Below, piece by piece: positions 8,423 to 62,962 of a stretch of 64,000 nucleotides of DNA. A program made the translations under genes and the position numbers. The stretch lies in NCBI GenBank assembly GCA_027492035.1, contig JAOZFT010000004.1, forward strand, positions 248,001 to 312,000, given 5' to 3'. Under the pieces are notes generated by a model, which was not told the origin of the DNA, did no database searches, and saw only the letters and a list, made by a program, of their open reading frames with translations. The number at the start of each line of letters is the position of its first letter. Positions within the stretch are counted from its first letter, which is position 1. The DNA comes from Thermoproteota archaeon. GTDB taxonomy: Archaea > Korarchaeota > JAOZGF01 > JAOZFZ01.

Positions 8423-8539
8423 TGGGCCGGGTGGGATTCGAACCCACGACCTCCGCCCTTTCGATTTCCTTAATCGTCAAGGCGGCATCATCTCTGGAGT
8501 TGTTACTTAAACAACTTAGCCAGGCTAGACTACCGGCCC
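8423..8539 (-). tRNA. tRNA-Val(GAC) with two introns (D-loop and anticodon loop)
   Basis: The gene is 117 nt. Acceptor strands GGGCCGG/CCGGCCC and the T arm GTGGG-TTCGAAT-CCCAC are perfect. One insert (8492-8517, 26 nt) lies in the D-loop between bases 20a and 21. It folds as a bulge-helix-bulge with a CTGG/CCAG central helix, bulges CTA and AGA, and an inner stem AGTTGTT/AACAACT. A second insert (8459-8474, 16 nt) is at the usual 37/38 site with central helix TTGA/TCGA. Removing both gives a 75-nt tRNA with anticodon GAC and loop TTGACGG. The mature D arm then matches that of the tRNA-Val(TAC) gene at 34656, including the T13-T22 mismatch. Confidence 0.93.
8492..8517 (-). other. D-loop intron of tRNA-Val(GAC)
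   Basis: A 26-nt insert flanked by a CTGG/CCAG 4-bp helix with 3-nt bulges CTA and AGA. Cleavage after the second base of each bulge restores a normal D arm. The inner stem is 7 bp with a 5-nt loop. The outer helix is weak. Confidence 0.85.
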
Positions 8540-13736: not shown

Positions 13737-13826
13737 CGCCGCCGGCAGGATTTGAACCTGCGACCATCTGGTGGCTGCACTTAATTTTTAACAGCCAGAC
13801 GCTCCACCGGGCTGAGCTACGGCGGC
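13737..13826 (-). tRNA. tRNA-Asn(GTT) with anticodon-loop intron
   Basis: Acceptor GCCGCCG/CGGCGGC and anticodon stem TCTGG/CCAGA. A 16-nt intron (13773-13788) lies at 37/38: central helix CTGT/GCAG, bulges TAA and CCA. Splicing gives loop CTGTTAA, anticodon GTT, and a 74-nt tRNA. It is the first gene of the Asn-Glu-Leu minus-strand operon. Confidence 0.94.
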
Positions 13827-61542: not shown

Positions 61543-61814
61543 TGTCTCTTTTTGAAGTAGGCAGGGTTTGTGTTAAAAAAGCTGGGAGAGAAGCTGGGCG
61601 TTTCTGCGTCATTGTGGATTTAATAGATAAAAACTATGTTTTGGTTACGGGGCCAAAGCAATTAACAGGTGTAAGGAGAAGGAGAGTTAACATTGACCAT
61701 TTGGAAATAACTAAACATAAAATCAACATCTCCAAAGGAGCTGATGACGACGAGGTAGTGAAGGCTTTAAATGAATCAACACTGCTTAAAATTTTTCAAG
61801 GAAGGAAGAAATGA
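61542..61814 (+). CDS. rpl14e: Ribosomal protein L14e (eL14)
   Basis: A KOW-like 90-residue protein: FEVGRVCVKKAGREAGRFCV and VLVTGPKQLTGVRRRRVNID (the latter quoted as the core). It shares one base with the cmk stop and four with the cbf5 start. Confidence 0.95.
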   Translation: MSLFEVGRVCVKKAGREAGRFCVIVDLIDKNYVLVTGPKQLTGVRRRRVNIDHLEITKHKINISKGADDDEVVKALNESTLLKIFQGRKK

Positions 61815-62778
61815 ATAAAGGGATGGATGAGTGGCTTACAAAAACAAGATATGAAAAGCCAAATTTGTACAAAGGATGGAGCAGTGAAAAAGATGTACCC
61901 CAATTATTAAATAAAGGAATTGTTCCAGTTGATAAGCCTCCCTCAATGACTTCAACGGCTGTTGTGGAATGGGTTAAATCCCTCTTCCATGTATCTAAGG
62001 CAGGTCATTTAGGAACCCTAGACCCCTACATAAAGGGGAGGGAAATCCTAACGTTACAGGGGTCTTACCTGTAGCCCTCGGTAAAGCCTGTAAAGTTGCT
62101 GATTTATTGCTTAAAACAGAAAAGGAATATGTTGGAGTGATGAAGCTTCATCGAGATATTCCAGAAGAAAATGTACGTAATGTTTTTGAAGTGTTTAAAG
62201 GGGAAATATATCAGGTTCCCCCCTCCAGGGCGGCTGTGAAAAGGAGTTTGCGCGTAAGAAAAATTCATGAACTGAAACTTTTACAGAAAAAGGGTAAATT
62301 CGTTCTGTTTCAGGTGAACTGTCAATCAGGTACTTACGTAAGGAAACTCTGCGTCGATATCGGCAGGGTTTTGAAAGTAAGAGCTAACATGGTTAGTTTA
62401 CGCAGAATAAAAACTGGAACATTTCACGAAGATCAATCCTTCACTTTACCACAAATAACCCTCGCTTATTATTTGTGGAAAACTAGGGGGGTAGAGGAGC
62501 CGATAAGGGAAGTTGTTAAACCACTAGATTCAGTCCTTAACAATTTGTTACCTGCAATATTAATCAAAGACTCTGCAGTCGAACCTGTTAAGAACGGTTT
62601 TCCGTTAATGATCCCAGGAATCATAGCTTTATCCAGTAAGGTTCCGAGAGGAGGCATTGTCTCTATTCAAAAATTAAACGGGGAAATAATTGCAGTTGCA
62701 AAAACGGTTTTATCTTCTGAAGAAATTTACAAGAAGAAAAGGGGGGTTGCAGCGAAACCTATCAAAGTTCTTGTCTAA
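61811..62778 (+). CDS. cbf5: tRNA/rRNA pseudouridine synthase Cbf5 (dyskerin homolog), gene split by an intron
   Basis: Exon 1 (61811-62021) encodes the N-terminal region and VDKPPSMTSTAVVEWVKS, ending in AGHLGTL. Exon 2 (62045-62778) continues with DPNVTGVLPVALGKA and then the TruB core (AAVKRSLRVRKIHELKL, GTYVRKLCVDIG) and a C-terminal PUA domain (VEPVKNGFPLMIPGIIAL). The 23 bases between fold as a bulge-helix-bulge, and their removal gives a 314-residue Cbf5. Without splicing the frame stops at 62074 after 87 residues. Cbf5 is the catalytic subunit of H/ACA RNPs and also acts on tRNA U55. The ATG overlaps the L14e stop. Confidence 0.93.
62022..62044 (+). other. Archaeal BHB intron in cbf5 pre-mRNA
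   Basis: Elements in order: outer helix TTAGGA/TCCTAA (with one extra A on the 5' side), central 4-bp helix CCCT/AGGG, 3-nt bulges AGA and AAA, inner helix CCCC/GGGG with loop TACATAAA. Cutting after the second base of each bulge removes exactly 23 nt and joins G|AT, forming the codon of the catalytic Asp (T-L-D). Confidence 0.9.
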
Positions 62779-62858: not shown

Positions 62859-62962
62859 GCCGGGGTACTCCAGCCAGGTAGGAGGCGGGCCTGGAGAAAT
62901 TTCTTTTAAACAAAAAGCCCGTGGCTCTTGGAGCCTCGTGGGTTCAAATCCCACCCCCGGCG
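62859..62962 (+). tRNA. tRNA-Ser(GGA) with anticodon-loop intron
   Basis: Acceptor GCCGGGG/CCCCGGC with discriminator G73, D stem CTCC/GGAG, anticodon stem CGGGC/GCCCG, and a type II variable arm. The anticodon loop is 26 nt; taking a 19-nt intron at 37/38 (62897-62915) leaves loop CTGGAGA, anticodon GGA and an 85-nt tRNA. The intron is A/T-rich and no good 4-bp central helix is seen, unlike the other introns here. Confidence 0.88.

Follow-up and report, generated by a model that had tools for sequence, protein, structure and literature searches.

Background

The closest described system is the bulge-helix-bulge (BHB) intron in cbf5 of the Desulfurococcales and Sulfolobales (Watanabe 2002; Yokobori 2009, PMC2738675). 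Published cbf5 introns are 16-44 nt long (PMC2738675, Table 1), and their splicing has been reported by cDNA for several crenarchaea; the authors of the 2009 paper held that intron removal is required for Cbf5 activity, proposed a negative regulation, scored Korarchaeum cryptofilum as lacking a cbf5 intron and placed the gain of the intron in the ancestor of two orders (PMC2738675). A 2020 paper named crenarchaeal cbf5 as the only other reported mRNA BHB intron and called its function unknown. In 2009, and still in 2020, the sole BHB intron within archaeal protein-coding sequence was regarded, in the papers we found, as a crenarchaeal trait, and we found no report in the open literature of a cbf5 intron in Korarchaeota, Bathyarchaeia or Asgard archaea.

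The BHB introns of archaeal tRNAs and rRNAs share the recognition motif, and presumably the enzymes (EndA and RtcB), with the intron described here, but the latter lies in an mRNA and its fold makes use of codons that the protein's function keeps fixed. The BHB intron of Haloferax HVO_1309 (PMC7714728) is likewise an mRNA substrate of the splicing endonuclease; it is located in the 5' UTR leader, whereas that of cbf5 interrupts a catalytic codon.

The insert analysed here occupies positions 62022-62044 (+ strand) of the window, the whole 64,000-nt stretch of DNA under study, and lies at exactly the site published for the Desulfurococcales and Sulfolobales (PMC2738675), an identity that had gone unnoticed when the insert was first pointed out, together with the suggestion to align it with the crenarchaeal intron positions. 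We propose that it is, almost certainly, a BHB intron of the cbf5 pre-mRNA, the korarchaeal counterpart of the crenarchaeal one, predicted to be spliced by EndA and RtcB.

The cbf5 gene of the window

The window comes from a 1.87-Mb genome that is 93% complete, a draft in 42 contigs, and that appears to represent a deep, non-crenarchaeal lineage, a korarchaeal family distant from Korarchaeum. The gene order is secY, an unnamed ORF, L34e (below its curated cut-off), (d)CMP kinase, L14e and cbf5, with exon 1 of cbf5 overlapping the 3' end of the L14e gene. Exon 1 (61811-62021, + strand, from the ORF list) comprises 70 codons plus base 1 of the catalytic Asp codon and matches positions 4-69 of the CBF5 profile TIGR00425. 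Exon 2 (62045-62778, + strand) supplies bases 2 and 3 of the Asp codon, followed by 243 codons and a stop; it matches profile positions 71-311, contains the TruB_N, TruB_C_2 and PUA domains, scores above cut-off with both NF003280 and TIGR00425, and thus passes the family cut-off alone. The sole profile position missing between the exons is 70, the Asp of GTLD-P, whose codon is split G/AT. Joining the exons at AG^A and AA^A gives acc cta g/at cct aac gtt aca ggg, which reads T-L-D-P-N-V-T-G. An unspliced message would be limited to an 87-residue stub, so that splicing would be needed for Cbf5. A scan of viral contigs using cbf5 exon 1 gave no match.

The intron and its fold

The 23-nt intron, ACCCCTACATAAAGGGGAGGGAA, scores 68.4 bits with covariance model R1 at 61996-62064. 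Folding places a 6-bp outer exonic helix between UUAGGA (62009-62014) and UCCUAA (62046-62051), all on the + strand, and a 4-bp inner stem between CCCC (62023-62026) and GGGG (62035-62038). Between them lies the 4-bp central helix, supported by both folding and comparison, in which the exonic arm CCCU (62016-62019), whose base 2 is the Thr wobble base, pairs with the intronic arm AGGG (62039-62042). Sequence and comparison define the two 3-nt bulges, AG^A (62020-62022) and AA^A (62043-62045), with predicted cuts at 62021/62022 and 62044/62045. An unpaired A at 62015 faces the AAA bulge, which makes the outer junction a 1x3 internal loop and the whole a slightly relaxed BHB.

In local folding the minimum-energy structure is the BHB, at -19.1 kcal/mol. 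In a wider context at 37 C there are rival pairings of comparable energy, and the BHB pair probabilities are about 0.24-0.75; at 70 C the BHB is often, yet not always, dominant, with values that vary from about 0.46 to 0.87 with the context folded. Shuffling of the 23 nt yielded a 4-bp central helix in 1.3% of cases and a central helix together with a 4-bp inner stem in 0.0015%. Given this rarity, and since different inserts of the same architecture stand at the same position in nine other korarchaeal genomes, the BHB of the window is not due to chance.

The intron thus separates letters 1 and 2 of the Asp codon, carries a 4-bp central helix and 3-nt bulges, and leaves an open frame when removed at the predicted cuts, as do the cbf5 introns to which we assign it. 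The coordinates, frames, bulges and helices are as given in the original prediction, and cutting after base 2 of each bulge restores the protein motif as it had said, with TIGR00425 bracketing the Asp at position 70. Its description of the intron as very short does not hold; 23 nt is an ordinary length, well within the published 16-44 nt and the 13-41 nt found here.

Covariation and exon bias at the site

The pairing rule, fixed in advance from the window, makes exon bases -6 to -3 the partners of intron bases -6 to -3. All 35 of the first introns collected satisfy it, versus 0-2 of 35 for slid controls, and all four central pairs are formed in 78 of 79 distinct introns. The arms change in concert, CCCU being found with AGGG or GGGG, CACU with AGUG or GGUG, CUCU with AGAG or GGAG, CCUU with AAGG and CUUU with GAAG. 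The Thr wobble base pairs with intron base -4 in 78 of the 79, compared with a mean of 54.9 and a maximum of 66 over 100,000 permutations. When the alignment was made blind to structure, 92.8% of cells were paired versus 78.9% after shuffling, with covariation of 0.435 versus 0.176. The only one of the 79 to break the 4-bp rule is locus L183, which has CCCU against GGUU and to which a shifted or longer bulge may apply.

Codon usage in the flanking exons differs accordingly between genes with and without the intron: Leu is encoded by CTA in 66 of 79 intron-bearing genes versus 10 of 82 intronless ones (p=4e-21), and similar biases for GGG, ACC and CCC codons occur in intron-bearing genes only; the p-values given here count related sequences as independent. 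Silent exon positions at this site are held by the splice motif. The 79 introns range from 13 to 41 nt in length and fall in all three length phases, and their inner region is not conserved. The 13-nt intron, in cbf5 of the small-genome archaeon G085 (locus L052, 1141-1199), is below the published minimum of 16 nt and has almost no room for an inner helix.

Distribution of the intron

Ten of 29 korarchaeal genomes, from all five family groups, carry an insert at the Asp codon, measuring 15 to 33 nt where complete. Intact cbf5 is present in 18 of the 29, all in two genera, g4 and g7, and one genome has no detectable cbf5. Genera g7 and g4 are taken by us to include Methanodesulfokora and Korarchaeum cryptofilum, respectively. 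On the Cbf5 tree the intact korarchaeal genera are nested among intron-bearing ones, suggesting loss; the intron looks ancestral within Korarchaeota, with one or two clean losses in lineages including Korarchaeum and Methanodesulfokora.

For a wider survey, a covariance model was built from 35 introns; checked intron-bearing genes score at least 42 bits with it and intronless genes at most 40 bits. By this model (E up to 1e-6), about 183 of the 398 Thermoproteota sampled, spread over roughly 50 family groups, carry the intron. It was also detected in 16 of 227 Asgard genomes, all 16 reading four of four central pairs, and in 11 of 236 genomes of a small-genome phylum, five of the 11 by model score alone. 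A scan of loci located the insert at the identical base in Bathyarchaeota, Thermofilaceae, a Methanomethylicota bin, Desulfurococcales, Sulfolobales and Caldisphaera, as well as in several Asgard bins of Jordarchaeia type. The same-site scan found it absent in the sampled euryarchaea, Hadesarchaea, Lokiarchaeota, Hodarchaeota, Thorarchaeota and Pyrodictium. One Njordarchaeota bin (G780) contains both an intact and an intron-bearing cbf5 (L109, L247), and the contig with the intron-bearing gene is probably foreign to the bin. Other Asgard introns are located on contigs of >800 kb and >270 kb.

Splicing endonuclease and tRNA introns

The splicing endonuclease EndA is encoded at one locus in the window's genome, by a 378-aa ORF in which two endonuclease domains are fused. 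Its C-terminal half matches the crenarchaeal catalytic alpha subunit (2cv8, 3ajv_B), with His and Lys in the crenarchaeal alpha register, and its N-terminal half is a degenerate unit. This N-terminal half is divergent, showing a candidate loop GQYKPEDS versus the commoner korarchaeal YPKG or YPRG. The original prediction had advised a check for a heterotetrameric endonuclease, and the genome has the fused two-domain EndA instead: the crenarchaeal (alpha-beta)2 enzyme is encoded by separate alpha and beta genes, whereas here one ORF holds both. The architecture is like that of the korarchaeal two-unit EndA, a single gene with a degenerate N-terminal and a catalytic C-terminal unit, which has been described as a special type with a crenarchaeal-type broad-specificity loop (PMC4033280, where Fujishima 2011 is cited as the source for this two-unit enzyme and its specificity loop). 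Fused EndA at a single locus is found in 28 of 29 korarchaeal genomes, with or without the intron. Most of the intron-bearing genomes checked in Asgard archaea, Bathyarchaeota and other groups encode EndA as two separate genes, and the three-unit ARMAN-type EndA was not seen in the two members of the small-genome phylum that were checked. An RtcB gene is present in the window's genome.

Non-canonical introns are known from the tRNAs of Korarchaeum (PMC4033280), and three tRNA genes of the window deserve mention. The first (62859-62962, + strand), just downstream of cbf5, scores 46 bits with Rfam and was overlooked by ARAGORN; by eye it has a long variable arm and an anticodon-loop intron of ~19 nt. 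The second (8423-8539, - strand; Rfam 45 bits), also overlooked by ARAGORN, is by eye a Val GAC tRNA; it has both a D-loop intron and an anticodon-loop intron, a non-canonical arrangement that agrees with a broad-specificity endonuclease. The third (13737-13826, - strand) has an ambiguous anticodon in ARAGORN and possibly contains an intron.

We propose the following route for maturation of the cbf5 message. As the transcript folds, exon CCCU would pair with intron AGGG; the fused two-domain EndA, expected to act as a dimer, would cut after base 2 of each 3-nt bulge, as its homology and structure suggest; and RtcB would rejoin the exons to give GAU-CCU and an unbroken T-L-D-P-N-V-T-G. The same site is thus presumably served by the fused enzyme in the korarchaeal host and by a two-gene enzyme in the Desulfurococcales and Sulfolobales. 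That a BHB intron is removed here by the tRNA splicing endonuclease, and that this removal would be obligatory for active Cbf5, had both been predicted, and comparison among archaea argues strongly for both. The same prediction held that Cbf5 output could be limited by endonuclease capacity, a suggestion akin to the negative regulation proposed in 2009.

Alternatives to splicing

Two other readings of the insert do without splicing. An insert of 23 nt shifts the frame and the genome is a draft, as would be expected of an inactivating indel or an assembly error that makes the gene a pseudogene or an artefact; however, related and distant genomes have different inserts at the same phase and of the same architecture, and both exons are otherwise intact. 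A second intact cbf5, which the original prediction had named as evidence that would favour such inactivation, was not found in this 93% complete genome, where cbf5 is single. We give next to no credence to this reading, nor to one in which the insert is skipped in translation, by programmed bypassing or frameshifting, and never cut from the RNA. Skipping would result in the same protein, and no result favours it over splicing; against it, the conserved and covarying element is the very BHB that EndA recognises, with cuts at both bulges, the inserts vary from 13 to 41 nt through all three phases with no conservation of the inner region, and the crenarchaeal homologues have been reported as spliced by cDNA. 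The comparative data, the intact exons and the single gene accordingly led us to reject translational skipping, a pseudogene and a second copy of cbf5.

Origin of the intron

A spliced BHB intron at this codon may have reached the korarchaeal gene in several ways. Acquisition of the whole cbf5 from an intron-bearing crenarchaeon is suggested by the divergence of the Cbf5 proteins of the window and of korarchaeal genome G001, which stand apart in the free tree. However, holding all Korarchaeota together as one Cbf5 clade is not rejected (p-AU 0.979) and gives a likelihood better than that of the free tree by 54 units, so there is no sign of cbf5 transfer from Crenarchaeota; moreover, the closest protein to the window's Cbf5 is that of G001 itself (54% identity), and other korarchaeal families carry the intron. 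Such an acquisition is very improbable.

A single clade of intron-bearing Cbf5 proteins is rejected (p-AU 8.5e-8) and the sampled tree requires 13 intron changes, a non-monophyly that agrees either with many losses of an old intron or with recurrent gain. In the form GGG-ACC-CTA-GAT-CCC, the invariant GTLDP motif has self-complementary codons (GGGA with UCCC); the protein code therefore provides most of the outer helix, a circumstance that would help repeated gain and long retention alike. The korarchaeal intron could accordingly have been inserted independently at the same codon, the GTLDP codons being half a BHB and a repeat target; both the rejected clade and the outer-helix pairs, largely dictated by the protein motif, speak for this. 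The phase, however, is always identical, down to the single base, across at least four phylum-level groups. With clean losses suggested in Korarchaeota and documented in the literature for Desulfurococcales, an old intron with many losses fits too, and rejection of the single clade does not separate loss from gain. We regard independent insertion as a serious contender that nevertheless falls short of being probable. The other candidate is an intron that the common ancestor of Korarchaeota, Thermoproteota and at least some Asgard archaea already had, which would put its origin long before the ancestor of Desulfurococcales and Sulfolobales, and that was kept at the catalytic codon and lost many times; this we advance tentatively, as an unlikely but by no means negligible history.

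Significance

The BHB intron of this locus is genuine, of ordinary size and at the classical cbf5 site, and we found no earlier report of it for the lineage; this kind of intron is already known, and the wide distribution is the new part. An intron at the same base in Korarchaeota, about half of the sampled Thermoproteota, Jordarchaeia-type Asgard archaea and a small-genome phylum reopens the time of its origin, and also the question of whether introns land preferentially at the catalytic motif. In practical terms, gene finders will break Cbf5 in intron-bearing genomes, and an mRNA can be added to the predicted substrates of the fused korarchaeal endonuclease. If the intron was indeed ancestral, it would be older than the archaeal lineage from which eukaryotes arose and would rank among the oldest known introns of protein genes.
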